Below are positions 727-11,216 of a DNA stretch of 34,236 bases, piece after piece; position 1 is the stretch's first letter; each line of letters starts with the position of its first letter. The position numbers and the translations under genes are program-made. The notes under the pieces are model-generated. The model ran no database searches. It was not told where the DNA came from and was given only the letters and a program-made list of their open reading frames with translations. The DNA comes from Oscillospiraceae bacterium (GTDB lineage Bacteria; Bacillota; Clostridia; Oscillospirales; CAG-272): NCBI GenBank assembly GCA_015065215.1, contig SVQT01000001.1:1-34236 (forward strand). The letters are read 5' to 3'.

Positions 727-742
727 TTCATACCATCATATT

Positions 743-772
743 AGCAGCCGCCGAATTTCGGCGGCTGCTTTA
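743..772 (+). terminator. Hairpin terminator after clp gene
   Basis: A perfect 13-bp inverted repeat (743-755 with 757-769) lies 17 bp after the clp stop codon. The U-tract is short (TTTA), so termination may be modest, but position and GC-rich stem fit an intrinsic terminator. Confidence 0.75.
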
Positions 773-833
773 CCATCAAGGCATTGATATCTAAATTAGT
801 GCAATTCGTATTATTGAAACCGAGGGGAAGATT

Positions 834-1985
834 ATGTTTAATTCACATTATGTACCGCAATCTGTTTTGCGAAAATGGGCAGATCGAATCTGTGTGTATA
901 ATTTAGAAAGCAAAACTTTGACAGAAAATATAAAAACAGAGGACGTTTTTGCAAGCAAGGGCTTTTATAGCGATGAGATCGAAGAAAAATTACATTTGCA
1001 GATTGAGTCGCAGTTCGGAAATTTGCTGTCGAATATAATTTTGAAATCGGAGGAAAGTGTACGTTTATATAAAGAGCAGTTGAAGATAGTCAAAAAATTT
1101 CTGTTGATAGAAGTTTTGCGTAGTCTTGGCGGTGAAGAGTTTATGCAATTTGAAAAGAGTTTATCAAAACGTCTCGAGCTACCGTTCGAAGAAAAGGATG
1201 TCGAAGGAGAAACCTCCTTTGATTACTGGATGCGCACGCTAAGGGTTGTGTTGGAAACCGATGGAACTCCGGAGGAAATTTTGAAAAGAGACGATAAAAC
1301 ATATCCCGCTTATCGGTGGGCTATGGTGGTTTATACGGCTCGCTTGGGATTCTGGGATGCCCCCGACAAAGGAGATGAGTTTTTAATTACAGATGCTGGC
1401 ATGACATCGGAAAACGAGTTGGGGTGGGACGGCTTTTCGGTTCAAAACTATAAAAAGCTTTATTGCGTAGCCTCGTGGTTGATGAGGGAGATTTGTGGGG
1501 GGATTTTTAAAGAAGATCTTATCAAATTGTTTCAAGCAACGGTATATTTCCACGAGAATTTTCAAATGTTTCCAATCTCTCCTAAACGAATGATTGTGCT
1601 AATTTCTCCGTTTTACAATATGTGGTCTGTTTTGAAAAAGTTTGGTTGTATGGTACCGCCTCTTACAGAATTAACACGCCTCCCCAACGAGTCACTATTT
1701 GTGGCTATGCCCAGAACTCAAGGAGAGATCAGCGGTGATGCTTACAACAATAATGAATATATTTATCCCGTTCAAAAGTTGTCACGCAAAGAAATTAGAT
1801 ATTGTAACTGCTTATTTTTGGATAGAATACATGCAGATTTAGGGTTTTCGTCATTAGAAAATGCGGCAGGAAGCATTTTCACATATTGTAATGCTCCACA
1901 TGCTCCTCGCGTAGATTATACGGAGCTTTACAATATTATCCAAGACAGGATTCCAGGTAAATTTGAAATGATAAATAGAAACTGA
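834..1985 (+). CDS. DUF4238 domain-containing protein
   Basis: A 383-residue cytosolic protein with no signal peptide or membrane segment. The N-terminal NSHYVPQSVLRKWADR followed by ICVYNLESK matches the signature start of the DUF4238 family (HYVPxxxLRxF then a VYxK strand); the next stretch (ENIKTEDVFASKGFYSDEIE) fits the family's conserved segment before a helical region. The function of DUF4238 is unknown to me; members are often scattered in accessory regions. The start at 834 is chosen from the purine-rich GAGGGGA about 6 nt upstream. Base composition and codon choice (many AAA, TTT, ATA) are clearly more AT-rich than the clp and rpsB genes on either side, suggesting horizontal acquisition. 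It sits upstream of the viperin cassette, which has its own promoter, so the two may be independent cargo. Confidence 0.75.
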   Translation: MFNSHYVPQSVLRKWADRICVYNLESKTLTENIKTEDVFASKGFYSDEIEEKLHLQIESQFGNLLSNIILKSEESVRLYKEQLKIVKKFLLIEVLRSLGGEEFMQFEKSLSKRLELPFEEKDVEGETSFDYWMRTLRVVLETDGTPEEILKRDDKTYPAYRWAMVVYTARLGFWDAPDKGDEFLITDAGMTSENELGWDGFSVQNYKKLYCVASWLMREICGGIFKEDLIKLFQATVYFHENFQMFPISPKRMIVLISPFYNMWSVLKKFGCMVPPLTELTRLPNESLFVAMPRTQGEISGDAYNNNEYIYPVQKLSRKEIRYCNCLFLDRIHADLGFSSLENAAGSIFTYCNAPHAPRVDYTELYNIIQDRIPGKFEMINRN

Positions 1986-1999
1986 ATTTGTCAATTTTT

Positions 2000-2016
2000 T
2001 CAAGCATCTTGCTTGA
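2000..2016. promoter_or_regulatory. Candidate operator palindrome over the HTH-gene promoter
   Basis: TCAAGCA-TCT-TGCTTGA is a perfect 7-bp inverted repeat with a 3-bp spacer. It overlaps the -35 hexamer (2013-2018) of the promoter for the small HTH regulator. There is no U-tract downstream, so it is not a terminator. The placement suits autorepression by the dimeric HTH protein encoded next; this is inference. Confidence 0.55.
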
Positions 2017-2041
2017 CTTACTGTTTAAAATGTGATATAAT
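2013..2041 (+). promoter_or_regulatory. Sigma-A promoter of viperin cassette
   Basis: TTGACT (2013-2018), 17-bp spacer, TATAAT (2036-2041), with a TG just upstream of the -10 (extended -10). Predicted transcription start is about 2048. Confidence 0.8.
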
Positions 2042-2047
2042 GCAAAT

Positions 2048-2106
2048 GTCATATTCGAAGCCTTTGGCGCATTGCATTGCCTCTGCAAAGGAGGTTTGCG
2101 AATATG
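2048..2106 (+). promoter_or_regulatory. Leader hairpin enclosing RBS and start codon
   Basis: At the predicted mRNA 5' end, CATATTCG (2050-2057) is a perfect complement of CGAATATG (2099-2106), which contains the ATG at 2104. Inside, CCTTTG (2061-2066) pairs with CAAAGG (2086-2091), overlapping the AGGAGG ribosome binding site (2089-2094). The nested stems could hold both RBS and start codon closed. Structure is inferred by eye. Confidence 0.5.
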
Positions 2107-2322
2107 GGAAATGAGAATCGAAAAATCGATCGCAAAAGGGGTAGCTTTTATCGAAGTATAATGGAACCAAAATTCTCGCAAGAGAAATGGGCGGAATTAC
2201 TTAATGTTTCCGCTCGAACCGTGGGCTATTATTATTCTGGTGAAAGAGAACCCGGGTTTTGGAGACAAATGATGATTTTTCAGATTATCGGAGGTCTCAA
2301 AGCAGAGGATATCCCTTCTTAA
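2104..2322 (+). CDS. Small XRE-like helix-turn-helix regulator
   Basis: A 72-residue protein. Residues 25-50 (SQEKWAELLNVSARTVGYYYSGEREP) form a Cro/cI-type helix-turn-helix: helix 2 start SQEKWAELL, turn NVS, recognition helix RTVGYYYSG. The start at 2104 is preferred to an in-frame ATG at 2077 because a perfect AAAGGAGG lies 7 nt upstream of 2104 and after 2077. It is the first gene of the cassette, with a strong promoter, a palindrome on the -35 box and a terminator-like hairpin over its stop codon, so it probably regulates itself and perhaps the HNH-viperin genes behind it. No second domain is present, so it could need a partner or act as a simple dimer. Target and signal are unknown. Confidence 0.75.
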   Translation: MGNENRKIDRKRGSFYRSIMEPKFSQEKWAELLNVSARTVGYYYSGEREPGFWRQMMIFQIIGGLKAEDIPS

Positions 2323-2343
2323 GGGGTATCCTTTGTTTTTTTT
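2307..2343 (+). terminator. Intrinsic terminator overlapping HTH gene stop
   Basis: An 11-bp stem (2307-2317 with 2321-2331, one G-U pair), 3-nt loop, then TTTGTTTTTTTT. The TAA stop codon (2320-2322) is in the loop and stem. It would attenuate transcription from the regulator into the HNH and viperin genes. Confidence 0.75.
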
Positions 2344-2358
2344 GAACCACATGGTTCA

Positions 2359-2387
2359 TGGAAAATGCCTCTTTCATGTGAGATAAT
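2359..2387 (+). promoter_or_regulatory. Possible weak promoter for HNH-viperin genes
   Basis: TGGAAA (2359-2364), 17-bp spacer, GATAAT (2382-2387). The -10 surroundings (TGTGAGATAATGTAAATG) closely match those of the cassette promoter at 2031-2048 (TGTGATATAATGCAAATG). An inverted pair CACATG/CATGTG (2348-2353, 2375-2380) flanks the spacer and could be an operator. Confidence 0.45.
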
Positions 2388-2419
2388 GTAAATGAAATCT
2401 TAGAAAGGAGGTAATCAAA

Positions 2420-2743
2420 ATGTCGAACTATCGTACCATAGACGTGTGGAACGAGCGCTATGGAAATAAGGAAGCCGTGTATGATTACGCAGGACGATTG
2501 ATGAAAAAGTCAGCTTGTGGAGATCCAAACAGTGCTTTTCATCCAACGCTCGACCACATTCGTCCGCTGTCTGCCGGCGGAAGCGACGTTCTCGGGAATA
2601 TCGAAATTTGCCATCGTGATACCAATGAGGAAAAAGCGGATAGTTATACTCACTGGAAGGCAAACGGAAGAAGATTTCGTGCAGAGCGCATCAAAGGCAA
2701 AAGAACTGATTATAGAATCACTGAACTGAAAAAGGAGGACTAA
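2420..2743 (+). CDS. HNH nuclease-like protein
   Basis: A 107-residue protein with a single HNH-type beta-beta-alpha core: LDHIRPLSAGG (Asp45-His46), central Asn60 in LGNIEICH, and Asn69-x-x-Lys72 in DTNEEK, i.e. the DHxxPLSxGGxxxxxN...N..K pattern of HNH endonucleases (HNN variant). The usual second Zn-binding CxxC pair is absent; only Cys33 and Cys64 are present. HNH proteins cut DNA or RNA with one metal ion. No extra DNA-binding domain is seen, so specificity is unclear. RBS AAAGGAGG lies 8-9 nt upstream of 2420. The gene ends 15 bp before the viperin start and the two are in the same frame, so they are surely co-transcribed. A role in phage defence with the viperin is inference from neighbourhood. 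Confidence 0.75.
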   Translation: MSNYRTIDVWNERYGNKEAVYDYAGRLMKKSACGDPNSAFHPTLDHIRPLSAGGSDVLGNIEICHRDTNEEKADSYTHWKANGRRFRAERIKGKRTDYRITELKKED

Positions 2744-2758
2744 AAAAGAGAGAAGTTT

Positions 2759-3580
2759 ATGAAGGTGATCAATTATCACATCTGCGGCACCTGTAATTAT
2801 CAATGCAAGTACTGTTTTGCTAATTTCGGTGAAAGAGATCCATCAAAAGAAGTTGCAATGAACATTATCAAAGAGATCCATAATTTTTTTATGAGAAGCG
2901 GTGTTTCTGATGGAAGGGTCAACATTGCGGGTGGGGAACCGTTGTTATATCCGTATTTGACCGATGTTATTGAATGCATCAGTGGATTAGGGATGAAAGC
3001 TTCGGTGATAACCAATGGGTCTCTACTCAGCGAAAAATTATTATCTAAATGGTCACAAAAAGTGGAAATGATAGGTATTAGTATCGATGCTGTGAGCGAA
3101 CAAGGTAACGTACGTATCGGACGCAACCAACAGGGAAGTATTTTGACTACCGAACAACTGATTCGCAAAGCGCACTTGATTCGCAAATATGGAATTCAAC
3201 TGAAAGTTAATACCGTAGTTTCAAAACTCAATCTTGAGGAAGATATGCTTTCGATTTATCGAAGGATGAATCCGGATAAGTTGAAATTTCTGTGTGTGCA
3301 TGTTTTAGAGAATGTGAATGCAGAAGCTGAACGATTACAACCTACACAAGAAGAATTCGATGCTTTCGTGGCAAAAAATCGATATAATGAATCATGTAAG
3401 GTGGTTGTAGAGCCTAAGGGTGCTATGCAAAATTCTTATCTCATGATAAGTCCACAGGGAACTGTCTTTTTAAACGAAGGTGGAAGGGAGAAAAAATACG
3501 GAAACTGTTTAAACAACGAGTTGTATGAAATTTGTGAACAACTTCCGTTTGATAGCAACAAATACAACTTGAGATATTGA
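2759..3580 (+). CDS. Prokaryotic viperin (radical SAM ddhNTP synthase)
   Basis: A 273-residue radical SAM enzyme. Cys12-x3-Cys16-x2-Cys19 (CNYQCKYC) binds the 4Fe-4S cluster; NIAGGEP (55-61) contacts S-adenosylmethionine; TNGS (85-88) follows. Beyond the generic fold it shares viperin-specific signatures: GISIDA (106-111) then NVRIGR (117-122), KVNTVV (149-154), NLEEDM (158-163), a MNPDKLKFLCVHVLE strand matching LNPxRWKVFQCLLIE of animal viperin, the EEFDAFVAKN helix, a KGAMQNSYLMISP segment like KMKDSYLILD, and a C-terminal FDSNKYNLRY. Viperins convert CTP, UTP or GTP to 3'-deoxy-3',4'-didehydro nucleotides that terminate viral RNA synthesis; bacterial ones protect against phage. Which NTP this one uses cannot be read. 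The animal N-terminal amphipathic helix is absent, as in bacterial forms. The RBS is weak (GAGAGAAG), suggesting coupling to the HNH gene. No nucleotide kinase partner is in the cassette. Confidence 0.9.
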   Translation: MKVINYHICGTCNYQCKYCFANFGERDPSKEVAMNIIKEIHNFFMRSGVSDGRVNIAGGEPLLYPYLTDVIECISGLGMKASVITNGSLLSEKLLSKWSQKVEMIGISIDAVSEQGNVRIGRNQQGSILTTEQLIRKAHLIRKYGIQLKVNTVVSKLNLEEDMLSIYRRMNPDKLKFLCVHVLENVNAEAERLQPTQEEFDAFVAKNRYNESCKVVVEPKGAMQNSYLMISPQGTVFLNEGGREKKYGNCLNNELYEICEQLPFDSNKYNLRY

Positions 3581-3599
3581 ATGTATTTTAGGGTCAAGA

Positions 3600-3845
3600 A
3601 TGAAGAAAGCAAAACTTGATACACAGGGCAGAATTGTTATTCCAAAGCCGTTTCGTGCAGAGTTGAATATTGTAGAAGGAGCGCCGTTGATGATTACGTG
3701 TGAAGGAGGCGCTGTTATTGTTAGACCGGACAAGAGTACATGCGCACTTTGCGGTTCCCATATGAAATCCGACAACAAAATGCGGTTATGTGACAAATGC
3801 ATAAAAGATGTTCTGGAATACTGTGGTGTTCAAAACAAAAAATGA
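3600..3845 (+). CDS. AbrB/SpoVT-type DNA-binding protein with Zn-ribbon-like tail
   Basis: An 81-residue protein. Residues 1-43 are a swapped-hairpin AbrB/MazE/SpoVT domain (KLDTQGRIVIPKPFR, then a two-strand segment ending AVIVRP). Residues 48-67 carry two CxxC knuckles (Cys48/Cys51 and Cys64/Cys67), a plausible zinc-binding ribbon. AbrB-type proteins bind DNA as dimers or tetramers, either as transition-state regulators or as antitoxins; no toxin gene is next to it. It starts 19 bp after the viperin stop with a poor RBS, so it likely belongs to the viperin transcript, and it is followed by the terminator that closes the island. It could regulate the cassette or be unrelated host cargo; similar short AbrB-CxxC proteins also occur as ordinary clostridial regulators. 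Confidence 0.8.
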   Translation: MKKAKLDTQGRIVIPKPFRAELNIVEGAPLMITCEGGAVIVRPDKSTCALCGSHMKSDNKMRLCDKCIKDVLEYCGVQNKK

Positions 3846-3852
3846 TACACAT

Positions 3853-3893
3853 AAAAAATTGCACCTTCGCGCAAACGAAGGTGCAATTTTTTA
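3853..3893. terminator. Strong (bidirectional) terminator closing the island
   Basis: A perfect 17-bp stem (3853-3869 with 3876-3892), 6-nt loop, with an A-tract on the left and a T-tract on the right. It separates the viperin cassette from rpsB. Confidence 0.92.
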
Positions 3894-3960
3894 TTGAAGA
3901 GATGGCCAAACCGCACAAAGTCTTTAATTGTAAAAAAAATGTAAACAGTGCTATTTCTTC

Positions 3961-3989
3961 TTGCAAAGAGAAAAACTATATGATATAAT
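3961..3989 (+). promoter_or_regulatory. rpsB-tsf promoter
   Basis: TTGCAA (3961-3966), 17-bp spacer, TATAAT (3984-3989) preceded by TGA (extended -10). Transcription start is about 3996. Confidence 0.82.
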
Positions 3990-3995
3990 AATGCC

Positions 3996-4114
3996 CGCTT
4001 GCGTGATGGCGAGCAAAAACACACACGGGTTCGGATGCAGGGTCGGTGCCTCGCTTTGGTGAGGTTGCCTTGTGAGATCACCGTGGTGGAAAAAACCATA
4101 AGGAGGACATTAAA
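3996..4114 (+). promoter_or_regulatory. rpsB 5' leader, possible S2 autoregulatory RNA
   Basis: An untranslated leader of about 119 nt between promoter and rpsB, containing a hairpin formed by CCTC/GAGG arms around 4051-4066 with extra GGT/GCC pairing, and AAGGAGG just before the start. S2 genes in several phyla are autoregulated through leader structures; whether this one is can only be inferred from its length. Confidence 0.35.
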
Positions 4115-4855
4115 ATGTCTGTTATCACCATCAAACAGCTGCTTGAAGCAGGCGTCCATTTCGGACATCACACCAGAAGATGGAACCCCAAAATGCAGGA
4201 GTACATCTTCACCGAGCGTAACGGTATCTACATCATCGACTTGCAGAAGACCGTTAAGAAGTTCGAGGAAGCTTACGCTTTCGTTCGTGACCTTGCCGCG
4301 GGCAACGGCACCGTCCTGTTCGTAGGCACCAAGAAGCAGGCTGCCGACGCCATCAAGGAAGAGGCTACCCGTTGCGGCCAGTACTACGTGAATATGCGTT
4401 GGCCCGGCGGCATGATGACCAACTTCAAGACCATCAAGAAGTCCATCGCTCGCCTGAACGCCCTGACCAAGATGCAGGAGGACGGCACCTTTGAGCTGCT
4501 GCCCAAGAAAGAAGTTGCCGCAAAGCAAAAGGAGATCTTCGACCTGGAGAAGTCCTACGGCGGTATCAAGACCATGGAGCAGCTCCCCTCTGCTGTGTTC
4601 ATCGTTGACCCCCACAAGGAGCACAACGCAGTGCTTGAGGCTAAGAAGCTGGGCATTCCGGTCATCGCTATCGTTGACACCAACTGCAACCCCGATGATG
4701 CTGACTACATCATCCCCGGCAACGATGACGCGATCCGCGCCATCAAGCTGATCTCCTCTGTCATTGCCGACGCCGTGATCGAAGGCAAGCAGGGCGAGGA
4801 CACCGCCGCTACCGAGGCTCCCGCTGAGGAAGCTGAGGCTACCGACGCTGAATAA
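4115..4855 (+). CDS. rpsB: 30S ribosomal protein S2
   Basis: A 246-residue protein with the classic S2 start ([20 protein letters not shown]), [17 protein letters not shown], the [12 protein letters not shown] segment and the [13 protein letters not shown] and [11 protein letters not shown] motifs. S2 is a late-assembling protein at the head-platform junction of the small subunit, needed for binding S1 and mRNA. The acidic Ala/Glu-rich C-terminus (after about residue 228) is a common variable tail. AAGGAGG lies 8 nt upstream. It is followed after 22 bp by tsf, the near-universal rpsB-tsf pair. GC-rich codon use is typical of a highly expressed host gene and contrasts with the AT-rich island upstream. 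Confidence 0.98.
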
Positions 4856-4877: not shown

Positions 4878-5807
4878 ATGGCTAACATTACCGCAAAGGA
4901 CGTTGCTGCTCTGCGTGCTAAGACCGGTCTTGGCATGATGGACTGCAAGAAGGCTCTCGTTGAGGCTGAGGGCGACGTAGAAAAGGCTGTTAAGATCCTC
5001 CGTGAGAAGGGTCTGGCTACCGCTGAGAAGAAGGCTGGCCGTGTTGCCGCCGAGGGCCGTGTTGACATCATGACCAAGGACGGCGTAACCGCTATGGTTG
5101 AGGTAAACTCCGAGACCGACTTCGCTGCCAAGAGCGATGCCTTCAAGGCATTTGTGACCGGCTTGCTGGAGACCATCATTGCAAGCAAGCCCGCCAACGT
5201 GGCCGCTCTCATGGAGCTGCCCTTCCAGGGCGGCGCCCTGACTGTTCAGCAGACCCTTGTTGAGCAGATCGCTATCATCAAGGAGAACATCTCCGTTCGC
5301 CGTTTTGTGATCGTTGAGGGCATCACCTCCACCTACATCCACGGCATGGGCGGCACCGGCGTTATCGTCAAGTTCGAGACCAATGTTGCCGATAAGGAAG
5401 GCTTTGCCGAGTACGCCAAGAATATCGCTTTGCAGATCGCCGCAGGCAATCCTCCCCAGTACGTGAACATTGAGGATGTTCCCGCTGAGGCTGTTGCCGA
5501 GGAAAAGGCCGTTCTGATCGCGCAGATGAAGAACGATCCCAAGAACGCCAACAAGCCTGATGCGATCCTGGAGAAGATCGTTTCCGGCCGTCTTGGCAAG
5601 TTCTACGAGCGCGTTTGCCTGGTTGAGCAGGGCTACGTCAAGGAAGACAGCATGACTGTTGGCGCTTACACCAAGGCTACCGCAAAGGACTTGGGCGGCG
5701 ACATCAAGATCGTTTCCTTCGAGCTGTTCGAGAAGGGCGAGGGCATTGAGAAGGTAGAAGAGGACTACGCCGCCGAGATCGCAAGACTCTCCGGTGTGAA
5801 GCAGTAA
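4878..5807 (+). CDS. tsf: Translation elongation factor Ts
   Basis: A 309-residue EF-Ts, the nucleotide exchange factor for EF-Tu. The N-terminal UBA-like domain carries VAALRAKTGLGMMDCKKAL and the core has VNSETDFAAKSDAF, corresponding to the conserved TDF motif that inserts near the EF-Tu nucleotide site. Two core subdomains follow in normal order, and the C-terminal VSFELFEKGEGIEK is typical. Length is usual for the family. AAGGAGAG lies 8-9 nt upstream of the ATG. Unusually, the next gene is not pyrH: the transcript ends in a strong terminator and a surface-protein gene intervenes. Confidence 0.97.
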   Translation: MANITAKDVAALRAKTGLGMMDCKKALVEAEGDVEKAVKILREKGLATAEKKAGRVAAEGRVDIMTKDGVTAMVEVNSETDFAAKSDAFKAFVTGLLETIIASKPANVAALMELPFQGGALTVQQTLVEQIAIIKENISVRRFVIVEGITSTYIHGMGGTGVIVKFETNVADKEGFAEYAKNIALQIAAGNPPQYVNIEDVPAEAVAEEKAVLIAQMKNDPKNANKPDAILEKIVSGRLGKFYERVCLVEQGYVKEDSMTVGAYTKATAKDLGGDIKIVSFELFEKGEGIEKVEEDYAAEIARLSGVKQ

Positions 5808-5826
5808 TTCAAGCTTCATTGAATAC

Positions 5827-5859
5827 AAAAAGCGCAACGCTGCGACGTTGCGCTTTTTT
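5827..5859 (+). terminator. Intrinsic terminator of rpsB-tsf
   Basis: A perfect 13-bp stem (5827-5839 with 5846-5858), 6-nt loop and a TTTTTT tract, directly after tsf. Confidence 0.93.
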
Positions 5860-5862
5860 CTC

Positions 5863-5891
5863 TTTACAAATTTTTCTCTTTGTGATATACT
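5863..5891 (+). promoter_or_regulatory. Promoter of the BspA-like gene
   Basis: TTTACA (5863-5868), 17-bp spacer, TATACT (5886-5891). The predicted start near 5898 coincides with the first base of the 15-bp leader stem. Confidence 0.78.
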
Positions 5892-5897
5892 GAAGAA

Positions 5898-6066
5898 GCC
5901 AAACAAAATTCAATATTTACCTCCAAGGGATACGTGTTTTTATTTAGGTAAAAACGCTATGCCTGTTTTTCCGTATTCTTATTGGGGAAATGAATTTTGT
6001 TTGGCGACAATTCGGGGCTATGCGTTTTTCGGTGTGTGGCTCCTCGTTGGGCCACGCACTTTTTTG
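5898..6066 (+). ncRNA. Structured leader with terminator hairpin (riboswitch-like candidate)
   Basis: The leader begins with GCCAAACAAAATTCA (5898-5912), perfectly complementary to 5991-6005, enclosing 78 nt. Inside, TTTACCT (5916-5922) pairs with AGGTAAA (5946-5952). AAAAACGC (5950-5957) is complementary to GCGTTTTT (6022-6029) outside the closing stem, giving a possible pseudoknot that competes with part of the inner stem. A 9-bp hairpin (6032-6040 with 6051-6059, one G-U) followed by six T (6060-6065) then sits about 5 nt before the GGAGG of the downstream lipoprotein gene. This aptamer-plus-terminator layout is riboswitch-like, but I do not recognise a known class. Folding was done by eye. 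Confidence 0.55.
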
Positions 6067-6081
6067 TTCGGAGGAAAAAAC

Positions 6082-9000
6082 ATGAAAAAAAGAGGACTTT
6101 TGATTTTGTTGGCGGCGTTTCTTTGTCTCGTATGTGTGTTCATGCTTGCAGCATGTGACGAATCTGATACGCCCAACGCTGGCGACGGTTCCGACCCCAT
6201 CCACACCCACGCATGGGGTGAATGGCAAGTTGAAACCGAAGCTACCTGTCAGTCTTTGGGAAAAGAAACGCGAACCTGTAATTGCGGTGAGAGCGAAACG
6301 AGAACAATTCCTGCAACAGGGCATCACTACAATACAGACAATATTTGTATTGATTGTAATACCGAATTACAGTATTCTAATTCTTTGTTGTACGAATTAA
6401 ATCAAGAAGAAAATGCATACACGGTTGTTGGTATGAGTGAAATGACAACTGTGGTTGTGATTCCAAATTACTACAAGGGACTTCCCATAACCTGTATTGC
6501 CGAAGGTGCTTTTGATAATTGTGGTTTTATTACTGATTTACAAATATCTGCTACAATATCCAACATAGAGGGATTTTTGTTTGGAGAGGGACTGTCAGGG
6601 CTATCGAGTGTCAGTGTCGAAAAGGGAAATGCTGTTTATTACAGTGTAGATAACTGTGTGATACAAACTGCAAACAAAACTTTAGTTTTGGGCTGTAAAA
6701 ATAGTATTATTCCAACGGACGGCAGTGTAACCAAACTTGGAGATACTGCGTTTGTGGGTTGTATAGAATTAACTGAGATTACGATCCCTTCGAAAATCAC
6801 GGAAATTGGGATGTATGCTTTTGCGAGCTGTATTAACCTAACCTCAATTACCATCCCCGCAAGAGTGACAAGCATTGGTGAACGGGCATTCGACGGTTGC
6901 GAAAAGCTGATTGAGGTGTATAATCTTTCTTCTATAGATGTTGCTGGATACTTTGAAAATGTCAAAATGATTCATACCACAGCTACAGCAGCGAGTAAGC
7001 TGTTTACCGATGAAAATGGATTTCGCTTCTATGACGATGGAGTAGAGCGCTATTTAATGGGTTATAACGGTAATGATACGGCATTGGTTCTGCCCACAAG
7101 CTGTAATGGAAACAATTATGCGGTTTGGGATTATGCCTTTTATGGTCACAGCGAATTCCAAAGCGTTACGATTCCTGTTGCTGCGAGATGGTTTGGCAAT
7201 GAAGTATTTCGTGGTTGCGAGAATGTCAAAGCTGTATATTATACTGGAGATGTTGCCTCTTGGTGTAATATATACTTTTATTACATCCACTCTAATCCGC
7301 TAGCTTATGGGGCAGATTTGTATATGGGTGGTGATCTTGTGACGTTTTTGGAAATACCAAATGGCGTAACCGAAATCAAAGAGTGCGCTTTTTTTGGCTG
7401 CACAAGCATTATCAGTGTTACAATTCCTGCAAGTGTAACCGCTATTGGTAGTAGCAATCGTGCTTTTCAAGATTGTTATAAGCTGATTGAAGTGTACAAT
7501 CTGTCACCCCTCAATATTAGAGCGGGTGAAAGTTGGTATGACAATGGCTCCATTGGCACTTATGCTAAAAATGTATATACCGCATCCCAGGGTGAAAGCA
7601 AGCTGTTTACCGATGACAATGGCTTTATTTTCTACGATGACGGCACCAACCGATATTTATTGGACTATATCGGTACCGATACGGCTTTGACACTACCTGT
7701 GGGCTGTAAGGGGAATAATTATAAGATTTATGAACTTGCATTCTGTCACCGAAATGATCTTACCAGTATAACGATTCCTGACGGCGTGACTGGGATTGGC
7801 GTGAATGCTTTTTCCGGCTGTGTGGGCATTGTTCAAGTGGAAAATGGTGTTTCCTATGTTGATAAATGGATTGTTGGCTGCGATACCGGCGTTACAACCG
7901 TTACGTTGCGTTCTAATACGGTCGGGATATGTACTTCTGCATTCGAAGGATGTAGAAATTTAATCTCTATCTCCATTCCTGCAAGTGTAAGAAGCATCGG
8001 TGATTCGGCATTCTACCAGTGTTATAATCTAACGACAGTGAACTGCGGAGATAATAACCAACTAACAAATATCGGGGATAAAGCATTCTTTCTTTGCAAC
8101 GGCCTGACCACGATGAACTTCGGCACAAATAGTCAGTTGACCACGATTGGTTACGAAGCGTTCTCTTATTGCGATAGCCTGACCACGCTCACCATTCCTG
8201 CAAAAGTAACGAATATTGGTGACTATGCGTTCGTCAGTTGCAGTAATCTGACTACAGTCAATTTCCACGATAATAGCGAACTGGAGAGTATTGGAGAGTA
8301 TGCTTTTGAAATTTGTAGCAGTTTGACCACGGTGAATTTTGGAGATAATAGTCAGTTGACAACTCTCGGCGCCGGTCTGTTCTCTCGCTGCAATAGCTTG
8401 ACCTCAATCACTATTCCCCCAAGCGTAACGAGCATCGGCAAGCGTGCGTTTGAGTTTTGCAATAGCCTAACCGCTGTTTATATTACCGACATTGCGGCGT
8501 GGTGTAATATAGAATTTGATGATTATAATAACAATCCGTTGTATTATGCGCAAAATCTATATTTCGATAATACGCTTATAACGCATTTGGAAATTCCGAA
8601 TACGGTGACAAGCATTAAGAATTACGCTTTTTACGGTTGCACAAGCATCATAAGTGTGACTATCCCCGCAAGTGTGACAAGTATCGGCAATTCTGCATTC
8701 TACGAATGTGAAGGCTTGACCGGAGCGATTTTCGAAGATAATAGCCAATTAACGAGTATCGGCAATTTTGCATTCTACGAATGTGAAGGCTTGACCAGAG
8801 TGGTTTTCGGAGATAATAGCCAATTAACGAGCATTGACTTTTCTGCGTTCTACAATTGCAGAAATCTTAGTACAGTTGATTTTGGCGAGAACAGTCAATT
8901 AACGAGCATTGGCAACAATGCGTTTTCTAACTGCGAAAATTTAACTTCGATCATGATTCCCACCAACGTGACGAACATTGGCTTTTCTGCTTTTTCTGGT

Positions 9001-10311
9001 TGCTTCAAGTTGATTGAGATATATGATCTGTCTACTGCATTAGAAATTACAGCCGGTTCTTGGGATTACGGCGATATTGGACGGTACGCTGAAATCGTAC
9101 ATACTACGGCTACAGTAGAAAGCAAAGTGTCTACCGACGATAACGGCTATATCTTCTATGATGACAATACCAATCGCTATTTGGTAGGCTATACGGGTAC
9201 CGATACTGCATTAACCCTGCCTGCAAGCTGTAATGGGAACAATTATAAGATAAACCGATATGCGTTTTATAAATGTGACGATCTAACAAACGTGATCATT
9301 CCGTCGAGCGTAACGAGTATCGGCTCTTGGGCGTTCGCTTATTGCGACAGTCTGGCCTCGGTAACATTTAAAGATAACAGTCAACTGAAAAGCATCGACT
9401 CTTATGCATTCGAGAGTTGCGATAGCCTGACCTCAATCACAATTCCCGCAAGCGTAATCAGTATTTACGAACAAGCGTTTTTGGGTTGCTTTAGGCTGAT
9501 TGAGGTTTACGATCTGTCTACTGTATTGGAAATCACGGCGGGTTCTGATCTTTATGGTCAAGTGGGCAAATATGCTAAGATTATCCATACCACATCCACG
9601 GCGGAAAGTAAGCTGTTTACCGACAGTAATGATTATGTCTTTTATGATGACGGTACAAACCGTTATTTAATGGGCTATACCGGTACTGATACGGTATTGA
9701 TCTTGCCCACAAGTTGTAACGGAAATAGTTATGAAATTTGGCAATATGCATTCTCTCGTTGCCAAAATCTGACTTCCATCACGATTCCCGCGAGCGTTAC
9801 AAGCATTGGCGAAGGTGCATTCTCCGGTTGTGAAAACTTGACTACAGTAACATTCGCAGACAACAGCCAACTGACAAGAATTGATAATTATACATTCGGC
9901 TCCTGCCATGGCCTAACCTCAATTATTATTCCCGCAAGCGTGACAAACATTGGCGAAAGTGCATTCTCCAATTGCACAAGCTTGACAGCGGTAGCGTTGG
10001 GAGAAAACAGTCAGTTGACAACAATTGGCACACGGGCTTTCAGCTGGTGTGACAGCCTGACGGCTATCATCCTTCCTGTTAATGTAATGAGTATCGGCGA
10101 GAATGCATTTGAGTACTGTTATAATCTGTTCTTTGTTTATTACGGCGGTAGAGAAAGTGATTGGAATAATATTTCTATTTTCTCTTCTAACTACTACTTA
10201 ACCGATGCCCCCCGTTACTACTACTCCGAAAATTCACCCACAATGGCAGGGAATTGGTGGCACTACGATAACGACGGTAAGCCCATCGTTTGGCCCTCGG
10301 TAGCGGGTTAA
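6082..10311 (+). CDS. BspA-like leucine-rich repeat lipoprotein
   Basis: A 1409-residue surface lipoprotein. The start at 6082 has GGAGG 7-8 nt upstream and gives a lipoprotein signal peptide with lipobox LAAC (Cys25); the frame stays open 234 nt upstream but that part is leader. After the lipid anchor comes a HAWGEWQVETEATC...RTCNCGESE...IPATGHHY module common in clostridial surface proteins, then about 30 BspA/TpLRR-type repeats (consensus AFxxCxxLTSITIPASVTSIG). Four copies of an island module (ESKLFTDDNGFIFYDDGTNR ... LPxSCNGNNYxI) interrupt the repeats at about 6993, 7590, 9118 and 9603, and two WCNI...NPL modules precede others. The C-terminus (GNWWHYDNDGKPIVW) resembles the end of many BspA paralogues. 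BspA proteins mediate adhesion to host proteins or other bacteria; ligand unknown. Confidence 0.92.
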   Translation: MKKRGLLILLAAFLCLVCVFMLAACDESDTPNAGDGSDPIHTHAWGEWQVETEATCQSLGKETRTCNCGESETRTIPATGHHYNTDNICIDCNTELQYSNSLLYELNQEENAYTVVGMSEMTTVVVIPNYYKGLPITCIAEGAFDNCGFITDLQISATISNIEGFLFGEGLSGLSSVSVEKGNAVYYSVDNCVIQTANKTLVLGCKNSIIPTDGSVTKLGDTAFVGCIELTEITIPSKITEIGMYAFASCINLTSITIPARVTSIGERAFDGCEKLIEVYNLSSIDVAGYFENVKMIHTTATAASKLFTDENGFRFYDDGVERYLMGYNGNDTALVLPTSCNGNNYAVWDYAFYGHSEFQSVTIPVAARWFGNEVFRGCENVKAVYYTGDVASWCNIYFYYIHSNPLAYGADLYMGGDLVTFLEIPNGVTEIKECAFFGCTSIISVTIPASVTAIGSSNRAFQDCYKLIEVYNLSPLNIRAGESWYDNGSIGTYAKNVYTASQGESKLFTDDNGFIFYDDGTNRYLLDYIGTDTALTLPVGCKGNNYKIYELAFCHRNDLTSITIPDGVTGIGVNAFSGCVGIVQVENGVSYVDKWIVGCDTGVTTVTLRSNTVGICTSAFEGCRNLISISIPASVRSIGDSAFYQCYNLTTVNCGDNNQLTNIGDKAFFLCNGLTTMNFGTNSQLTTIGYEAFSYCDSLTTLTIPAKVTNIGDYAFVSCSNLTTVNFHDNSELESIGEYAFEICSSLTTVNFGDNSQLTTLGAGLFSRCNSLTSITIPPSVTSIGKRAFEFCNSLTAVYITDIAAWCNIEFDDYNNNPLYYAQNLYFDNTLITHLEIPNTVTSIKNYAFYGCTSIISVTIPASVTSIGNSAFYECEGLTGAIFEDNSQLTSIGNFAFYECEGLTRVVFGDNSQLTSIDFSAFYNCRNLSTVDFGENSQLTSIGNNAFSNCENLTSIMIPTNVTNIGFSAFSGCFKLIEIYDLSTALEITAGSWDYGDIGRYAEIVHTTATVESKVSTDDNGYIFYDDNTNRYLVGYTGTDTALTLPASCNGNNYKINRYAFYKCDDLTNVIIPSSVTSIGSWAFAYCDSLASVTFKDNSQLKSIDSYAFESCDSLTSITIPASVISIYEQAFLGCFRLIEVYDLSTVLEITAGSDLYGQVGKYAKIIHTTSTAESKLFTDSNDYVFYDDGTNRYLMGYTGTDTVLILPTSCNGNSYEIWQYAFSRCQNLTSITIPASVTSIGEGAFSGCENLTTVTFADNSQLTRIDNYTFGSCHGLTSIIIPASVTNIGESAFSNCTSLTAVALGENSQLTTIGTRAFSWCDSLTAIILPVNVMSIGENAFEYCYNLFFVYYGGRESDWNNISIFSSNYYLTDAPRYYYSENSPTMAGNWWHYDNDGKPIVWPSVAG
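8686..8835 (+). repeat. 75-bp tandem duplication inside BspA-like gene
   Basis: Bases 8686-8760 and 8761-8835 are adjacent direct copies differing at about 7 of 75 positions, each encoding one 25-residue LRR unit (starting GNSAFYECEGLT and GNFAFYECEGLT). They are much more alike than other repeats in the gene, so the duplication looks recent. Confidence 0.85.
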
Positions 10312-10505: not shown

Positions 10506-11216
10506 ATGGCTACTCCAAAATACAAGCGCATTCTTCTAAAGCTTTCCGGTGAGGCACTGGCCGCCGGAGGGAATGGGATCCTCAACTTTGATTTTATCGA
10601 CAGTATCGCCAAGGTGCTTGTTCGTTGCAAGGACGCGGGTGTTGAGATCGGTGTGATCGTTGGCGCCGGTAACATCTGGCGCGGCCGCCAGGGCGGTGAA
10701 ATGGACCGCACCCAGGCGGATCACATGGGCATGCTGGCAACCGCCATCAATGCGCTGGCCTTGCAGGATCGCTTCAACGCCGCGGGTCTTAGCACCATTG
10801 TAATGAGCGCGGTGGAAATGCCCGCCTTTGCCGATGCCTTTACCGTGCGTGACGCCAAGCGCGCCCTGGAAAAGGGAAAAACCGTAGTCTTTGCCTGCGG
10901 TCTTGGGCAGCCCTTCTTTTCCACTGATACCGCCGCCGTGCTCCGCGCCGCCGAGATTGGCGCTGACGCGGTGCTGATGGCCAAGAATATTGACGGTATC
11001 TACAGCGCCGATCCCCACAAGGATCCCACAGCCGTTCGCTATAAGGATATTACTTACAAAGAGGTGCTGGCAAAAGAGCTCAAAGCCCTTGACCTTTCCG
11101 CCACCACCTTCTGCATGGATAACGGCATCTGCTGTTACGCCTTTGAGCTTCGTGACCCCGAAAATATTTACCGCGTGGTCATGGGCGAGCATATCGGTAC
11201 CGAGCTACACCTCTAA
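10506..11216 (+). CDS. pyrH: Uridylate kinase (UMP kinase)
   Basis: A 236-residue bacterial UMP kinase of the amino acid kinase fold, hexameric and cytosolic, phosphorylating UMP to UDP with ATP. Seen: KRILLKLSGEAL at the N-terminus, VIVGAGNIWRGR (glycine-rich loop), DHMGMLATAINALAL, VFACGLGQPFFSTDTAAVLRA and the LMAKNIDGIYSADP segment. RBS is GTGAGG. It is followed after 21 bp by frr, the standard pyrH-frr pair. It is a housekeeping nucleotide kinase and should not be taken as a dedicated partner of the viperin about 7 kb upstream. Confidence 0.97.
   Translation: MATPKYKRILLKLSGEALAAGGNGILNFDFIDSIAKVLVRCKDAGVEIGVIVGAGNIWRGRQGGEMDRTQADHMGMLATAINALALQDRFNAAGLSTIVMSAVEMPAFADAFTVRDAKRALEKGKTVVFACGLGQPFFSTDTAAVLRAAEIGADAVLMAKNIDGIYSADPHKDPTAVRYKDITYKEVLAKELKALDLSATTFCMDNGICCYAFELRDPENIYRVVMGEHIGTELHL

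Follow-up and report, generated by a model that had tools for sequence, protein, structure and literature searches.

Prokaryotic viperins (pVips) were reportedly described by Bernheim et al. in 2021, and the Septu system consists of the ATPase PtuA and the HNH protein PtuB. To our knowledge, two questions are open: how cells survive making chain-terminating nucleotides, and what switches prokaryotic viperins on. According to published work, bacterial viperins can make the 3′-deoxy-3′,4′-didehydro (ddh) nucleotides ddhCTP, ddhUTP and ddhGTP (PMC10732462), the RNases HicA and RelE are found beside pVips (PMC10865869), and one DUF4238 protein by itself suffices for protection against T7 (PMC9122126). 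Here we analyzed a stretch of 34,236 nucleotides (nt) of contig SVQT01000001.1 from an Oscillospiraceae bacterium of the gut, called the window below, in which a viperin gene lies in a compact islet with genes for a DUF4238 protein, a small helix-turn-helix (HTH) protein, a predicted HNH nuclease and an AbrB-type protein.

The islet occupies about 3.1 kb between a clp gene and rpsB, and its guanine and cytosine (GC) content of about 0.37-0.41 is low against about 0.52-0.54 in the immediate flanks. On balance we favour its interpretation as a defence islet built of two units, DUF4238 with HTH and an HNH-viperin-AbrB operon. The HTH protein would bind the palindrome GAACCACATGGTTC and thereby switch the operon, and infection would lift repression or, slightly less probably, trigger activation. 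Viperin, as inferred from its family, would then turn a nucleoside triphosphate into its ddh analogue and terminate phage transcripts. The HNH protein may serve as a second effector cutting nucleic acid under the same control, which is a weaker step, and the AbrB protein is probably an accessory. A functional HNH-viperin partnership is plausible; it is the weakest part of the scheme and has one locus behind it.

The sequence-only reading of this DNA had described four genes, for HTH, HNH, radical SAM and AbrB proteins, in one tight array. All four are present where it placed them, and the tight spacing holds for HNH-viperin (15 nt) and viperin-AbrB (19 nt). The HTH gene belongs instead to the upstream unit with DUF4238, behind a predicted terminator. 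No plus-strand promoter was predicted between positions 2400 and 2758, and HNH-viperin-AbrB looks like one transcription unit. Because a terminator is predicted at the end of the HTH gene and a promoter before the HNH gene, the islet would comprise two adjoining units. That first reading had not listed the DUF4238 gene, the terminator predicted over the end of the HTH gene or the operator-promoter upstream of HNH.

Judged by its sequence, the radical SAM protein is a prokaryotic viperin, as had been proposed. It matches the curated prokaryotic viperin profile NF038283 over its full length with 260.8 bits (cut-off 180, E = 1.3e-77) and PADLOC pVip at 6.7e-75, and the cysteines C12, C16 and C19 of the cluster-binding CxxxCxxC motif are invariant across six aligned viperins. 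Viperin and viperin-like enzymes are among the nine PDB structures that match the protein best (1e-28 to 3e-25), of which the first three carry only the name radical SAM core domain protein. In a tree of 29 rows, with six outgroup rows on long branches and the row from a Treponema plasmid (L114; loci are denoted by L numbers) not cleanly separated, the window viperin falls within a nine-row clostridial viperin clade (support 97/93) and forms a four-row set with L036, L039 and L042 (support 100/99). An identity as another radical SAM enzyme such as MoaA is extremely improbable: MoaA profiles were matched, far under their cut-offs, and against this stand the curated viperin profile over its cut-off, PADLOC pVip, the structural matches and the clade. 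A MoaA-like identity was rejected on the viperin profile and the tree position. By analogy with its family, the viperin chemistry is ordinary and the enzyme is of a known kind.

A viperin over the cut-off is present in 6 of 395 genomes sampled from the bacterial family, the window's own included, and an order-wide search of 394 genomes at 1e-45 matched the window's genome alone. A scan of named genomes gave 16 viperin loci, of which eight are close clostridial ones, at least seven of them from ruminant guts. These eight (L035, L036, L037, L038, L039, L042, L043 and L045) are counted below as the distinct clostridial relatives; the five non-window family-genome loci were taken to be the same as five of them. 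No viperin was found in phage records at 1e-10. Viral contigs gave no match with the single sequence and five with an alignment, three of the five covering just residues 1-115. Two contigs classed as viral in IMG/VR (L056 and L057) carry near-identical viperins. Among 12 plasmid matches, seven regions were read: a deoxynucleoside kinase adjoins viperin in two, and other neighbours do so in five. On the Treponema plasmid (L114:1444-5807) viperin is arrayed with a cysteine desulfurase, a dikinase-like protein with a phosphoenolpyruvate/pyruvate-binding domain and a cytidylyltransferase-family protein. No nucleotide kinase is present among the five islet proteins; an AA_kinase gene lies about 7 kb from viperin, at 10506-11216, near an undecaprenyl diphosphate synthase gene.

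The junction between the two units has a defined layout: a hairpin containing the HTH stop codon, a T run, GAACCACATGGTTC, 24 nt, the hexamer GATAAT and the HNH start. Six loci with this type of HTH were compared (the window, L081, L085, L088, L091 and L128); the palindrome stands exactly 24 nt before the -10 hexamer in all six, and in all six the terminator overlies the HTH stop codon in the same way. The HTH protein is 50-51% identical to those of L128 and L088 and 34-40% identical to those of L081, L085 and L091. Upstream genes of the element vary (DUF4238 or a 370-amino-acid (aa) protein), as does the cargo, which is HNH or, in L128, another gene. In the latter (L128:4505-4760) the HTH operator-promoter precedes a small Asn/His-rich protein. 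In the window GAACCACATGGTTC has a single match, even at up to two mismatches. Exact motif with spacing was found at four places in 211 genomes, and all four are HTH-HNH junctions; the window's own genome has one copy. A scan of viral contigs for the exact motif gave seven stretches.

Since five further loci have the palindrome, at this spacing, after a related HTH gene, the HTH protein probably switches the HNH-viperin operon. The -35 region of the operon's promoter is weak and not conserved, and the palindrome would be centred near -43.5 if transcription starts 7 nt past the -10 hexamer, a position compatible with class II activation or with repression. A constant repressor is slightly favoured over an activator, because a separate promoter is predicted for the HTH gene and the window has no second palindrome. 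In L039 and L042 the viperin gene follows a different small HTH gene, again with a stop-codon hairpin, a palindrome-like [G/C]GACATTTTCTGTCC, 23 nt and a -10 hexamer.

Table 1. Features of the islet in the window (positions are those of the window)
Feature	Position	Strand	Basis
DUF4238 protein, 383 aa	834..1985	+	PF14022, E 5.3e-19, 69.1 bits vs cut-off 27
Putative promoter of the HTH gene, TTGACT-17-TATAAT, TG before second hexamer	2013..2041	+	Pattern scan, 11/12 matches
XRE-like small HTH protein, 72 aa, putative switch of the HNH-viperin-AbrB operon	2104..2322	+	Identity and profile-profile comparison
Predicted intrinsic terminator, spanning the stop codon of the HTH gene	2305..2343	+	Hairpin -17.7 kcal/mol, then T run
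Operator-like palindrome GAACCACATGGTTC, 14 bp	2344..2357	+	Conserved in 6/6 loci compared
Predicted -10 hexamer GATAAT, extended (TG before), of the HNH-viperin-AbrB operon	2382..2387	+	Promoter scan and locus comparison
Small HNH nuclease (predicted), 107 aa	2420..2743	+	13 close relatives, invariant H46/N60/N69
Prokaryotic viperin, 273 aa, radical SAM C12-C16-C19	2759..3580	+	NF038283, PADLOC pVip, structure matches, tree
AbrB/MazE-like protein with C-terminal zinc-knuckle pair (CxxC)	3600..3845	+	TIGR01439, 41.1 bits
Strong predicted terminator after AbrB, symmetrical stem	3851..3894	.	Hairpin -25.6 kcal/mol, then T run

The HNH protein matches a PHROG HNH endonuclease at 6e-7, and H46, N60 and N69 are shared by all 13 rows aligned; we take them to be the active-site residues (His-Asn-Asn/His). 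HNH enzymes usually cut DNA. The window protein gave no PADLOC match, and none to PtuB. Matches at 1e-8 were present in 24 of 395 family genomes, 14 of which, the window's own included, carry close matches (<1e-35), and the neighbourhoods examined are these 14 close loci. The 13 close relatives are about 55-84% identical to the window protein. Outside the family genomes, tblastn gave 156 phage records, all of them distant, partial matches below 60% identity with none covering 80%, and one plasmid record, of Mycoplasmopsis cynos, with 44.8% identity over 90%. In viral contigs the single sequence had no match, and an alignment had three, all partial.

The gene upstream of HNH differs between the 13 relatives. 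In seven (L082, L083, L084, L086, L087, L089 and L093) it encodes an AAA_15 ATPase, over the Pfam cut-off for PF13175 in all seven; by eye, most of these loci also have a hairpin-like repeat before HNH. The HTH group matches the C-termini of these ATPases with a probability of 91% in profile-profile comparison. As a side observation, their sequences suggest that the ATPase-HNH loci resemble a Septu-like pair with a built-in regulator. Three others (L081, L085 and L091) have a 370-aa protein and an HTH protein upstream, the former alike at 46-79% and, for the one copy scanned, matching no family; the HNH gene of L085 (581-793) contains an in-frame stop and is probably broken. One locus, L088, has DUF4238 and HTH without viperin. 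The upstream protein of L090 has no family over cut-off, and that of L092 was not identified. The HNH family shows how a single small nuclease gene, placed behind regulatory layouts of similar plan, can be shared by unrelated defence genes.

A recurrent cassette of HTH, HNH, viperin and AbrB, the genes that the sequence-only reading had grouped together, was not supported; that reading had itself named a lack of conserved neighbours in related genomes as the adverse outcome. By tblastn viperin had no match in the stretches around the 13 close HNH relatives, where contigs end after HNH within about 100 bases in L087 and L092 and about 600 in L085, and none over cut-off in the genomes of these relatives. 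Conversely, the DUF4238, HTH, HNH and AbrB proteins of the window had no match in the eight other clostridial viperin loci (tblastn) or in 15 viperin loci outside the clade. The neighbours are therefore not conserved for HNH and AbrB, which were rejected as conserved partners of viperin (0 of 13 HNH relatives and 0 of 8 clade viperins), and the combination that does recur is DUF4238-HTH-HNH without viperin.

All eight other clade viperins have a nuclease-type neighbour. In five (L035, with the array at 5795-9346, L037, L038, L043 and L045) an RNase III-domain protein of about 750-800 aa lies upstream and a Smr-domain protein downstream, PF00636 (RNase III) and the Smr domain being over cut-off in five of five each; the array is tight, with neighbours that overlap or abut viperin. 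The RNase III segments with the catalytic acids look intact in the four sequences aligned. In the remaining three (L036, 8193-10133, L039 and L042) a DEDDh exonuclease lies downstream (PF21762 over cut-off, 3/3), with a 250-aa protein between it and viperin in two. No RNase III, Smr or DEDDh homologues were found beside 14 viperins outside the clade (14 of 25 outside matches were checked). Nucleases abound in defence islands anyway, and the sample of nuclease neighbours is small, made of related loci and without a formal null. The idea of the sequence-only reading that a nuclease stands beside a chain-terminator synthase gains indirect support at the sequence level, because eight of eight related viperins have nuclease-type neighbours and HicA and RelE lie beside pVips in a published account (PMC10865869). 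We tentatively suggest, as a possibility of low probability, that clade viperins form a two-step system in which ddhNTP termination would be followed by a co-transcribed nuclease destroying stalled nucleic acid or rescuing that of the host, with the pair under an HTH operator switch in part of the clade. The dedicated nuclease would then be RNase III with Smr, the DEDDh exonuclease or, in the window, HNH.

The arrangement in the window may also have arisen by chance stacking, in which DUF4238-HTH-HNH is a complete system, viperin together with AbrB was added downstream by insertion, and viperin is transcribed by mere read-through from the HNH promoter without any functional tie to that system. 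This is a substantial possibility, though not the one we prefer: the occurrence of DUF4238-HTH-HNH without viperin in L088, the lack of viperin around the close HNH relatives and in their genomes, and the mixed neighbours of plasmid viperins (kinase in 2/7, others in 5/7) speak for it, whereas the 15-nt gap with no plus-strand promoter predicted at 2400-2758, the position of the L039 and L042 viperins likewise after an HTH gene with the same layout, and the nuclease-type neighbours beside all related viperins argue against it. It is less probable that HNH is the nuclease subunit of a DUF4238 or ATPase sensor, in the manner of PtuA/PtuB, with viperin as a separate effector. The AAA_15 ATPases that precede HNH in 7 of 13 other loci, with C-termini resembling the HTH protein, are consistent with such a role, and the one ATPase scanned (L084) matches PADLOC PtuA at 4.8e-15, behind AriA (7.8e-24) and Old (4.7e-19). 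Against this, HNH occurs with at least three unrelated upstream partners (ATPase, the 370-aa protein and DUF4238) and hence is not tied to one sensor, and the window protein has no PADLOC match; we consider the subunit role unlikely.

The nuclease neighbours of the clade could also be safeguards, which would clear host RNA of ends terminated by ddh nucleotides or recycle transcripts that have stalled. The folds of RNase III and Smr domains serve RNA processing, and the nsp14 ExoN of SARS-CoV-2 is a DEDDh-type enzyme. The DEDDh exonuclease that follows viperin in L036, L039 and L042 could remove ddh-terminated ends. The SARS-CoV-2 nsp14 ExoN excises ddhCMP from RNA (PMC9415739). A safeguard role is nevertheless distinctly unlikely in our estimate, and the window, in which the nuclease is of the usually DNA-cutting HNH kind, fits it less well than its relatives do.

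Several observations weigh against the favoured scheme of an HTH-switched operon with viperin and HNH as effectors. The order HNH-viperin-AbrB was seen in one locus only. Two domain assignments fall below threshold, namely HNH with PF01844 (20.4 bits, slightly short of the 21.4 cut-off) and the HTH protein with HTH_3 (14.1 bits, cut-off 23), the latter being conserved in six loci, and the structure model of the HNH protein is unusable (predicted local distance difference test (pLDDT) score 46.9). The promoters and terminators are predictions. The element is carried by six loci only, all in one bacterial family, and some of the motif's exact matches are the very loci used to define it. At up to two mismatches motif with spacing gave 24 places against 35 for a backward control, a figure whose split by mismatch is not shown; because of this control, the 20 two-mismatch places are ascribed to chance. 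The element in L039 and L042 consists of two related sequences only.

The islet is flanked on one side by the end of a Clp ATPase gene and on the other by rpsB followed by tsf; the window begins at a contig edge, and assembly completeness is 84.6%. Eight genomes of the same genus were queried, two of which dropped out, one for want of an rpsB match and the other because its rpsB lies at a contig end. In the six usable ones the distance from the clp match to the rpsB-leader match was 238, 433, 725, 814, 3761 and 4341 bp, and the five islet proteins had no match in this stretch (tblastn). Since the interval varies and the islet proteins are without a match in these six genomes, the islet is, on sequence grounds, an insertion in a variable clp-rpsB interval of the genus. 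The interval (727-4115 in the window; L172-L177) is either short or holds a haloacid dehalogenase (HAD)-like hydrolase, repeat-rich open reading frames or the islet. A BspA-type leucine-rich repeat protein of 1487 aa (5848-10311) adjoins tsf in a lower-GC stretch.

DUF4238 relatives were found in 4 of 394 other family genomes. The same HTH gene follows in two of the four (L088 and L128); in L127 and L129 no HTH match was found after DUF4238, and the contig ends soon past the gene. The structure model of DUF4238 has a pLDDT of 73.2, and its PDB matches reach E 0.38 at best. The gene is probably a defence gene in its own right, by analogy with the single anti-T7 protein (PMC9122126). The AbrB protein exceeds the TIGR01439 cut-off of 28.3 and is probably an accessory regulator or an antitoxin-like protein. 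Its zinc-knuckle type is common in the family, with matches at 1e-6 in 29 of 196 genomes, the window's own included (best other identity 39%), and 19 such loci, mostly with 1.5 kb on each side, showed no match to the other four islet proteins.

Our literature search, judged mostly by titles and with the neighbour surveys of the main viperin papers outside its scope, turned up no paper that places HNH, RNase III, Smr or DEDDh genes next to viperin. The operator-like element was not met in the viperin-neighbour searches, none of which was aimed at it. Viperin itself and RNase-type genes (HicA, RelE) beside pVips are known, and the operon is a new variant; the viperin-nuclease pairing in the clostridial group looks new. 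The arrays of viperin with RNase III and Smr (five) or DEDDh (three) could offer a testable answer on how chain terminators are survived, and the conserved operator-like element a direct handle on how prokaryotic viperins are switched on.

With the DUF4238 anti-T7 system (PMC9122126), the islet shares the Pfam domain of its upstream gene, PF14022; there a single protein is involved, whereas in the window DUF4238 is followed by HTH and HNH. With the HicA- and RelE-associated pVips it has in common that an unrelated nuclease gene directly adjoins the viperin gene; the nuclease differs, being HNH in the window and RNase III with Smr or a DEDDh exonuclease in its relatives. The likeness to Septu lies in the HNH relatives elsewhere that follow an ATPase with weak PtuA matches, whereas the islet has no ATPase among its five proteins and its HNH lacks a PADLOC match. 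With pVips the window enzyme shares a full-length match to the curated viperin profile and the radical SAM cysteines; it differs in that no nucleotide kinase adjoins it and that its gene is preceded by HNH and by the conserved operator-like element of the HTH loci.

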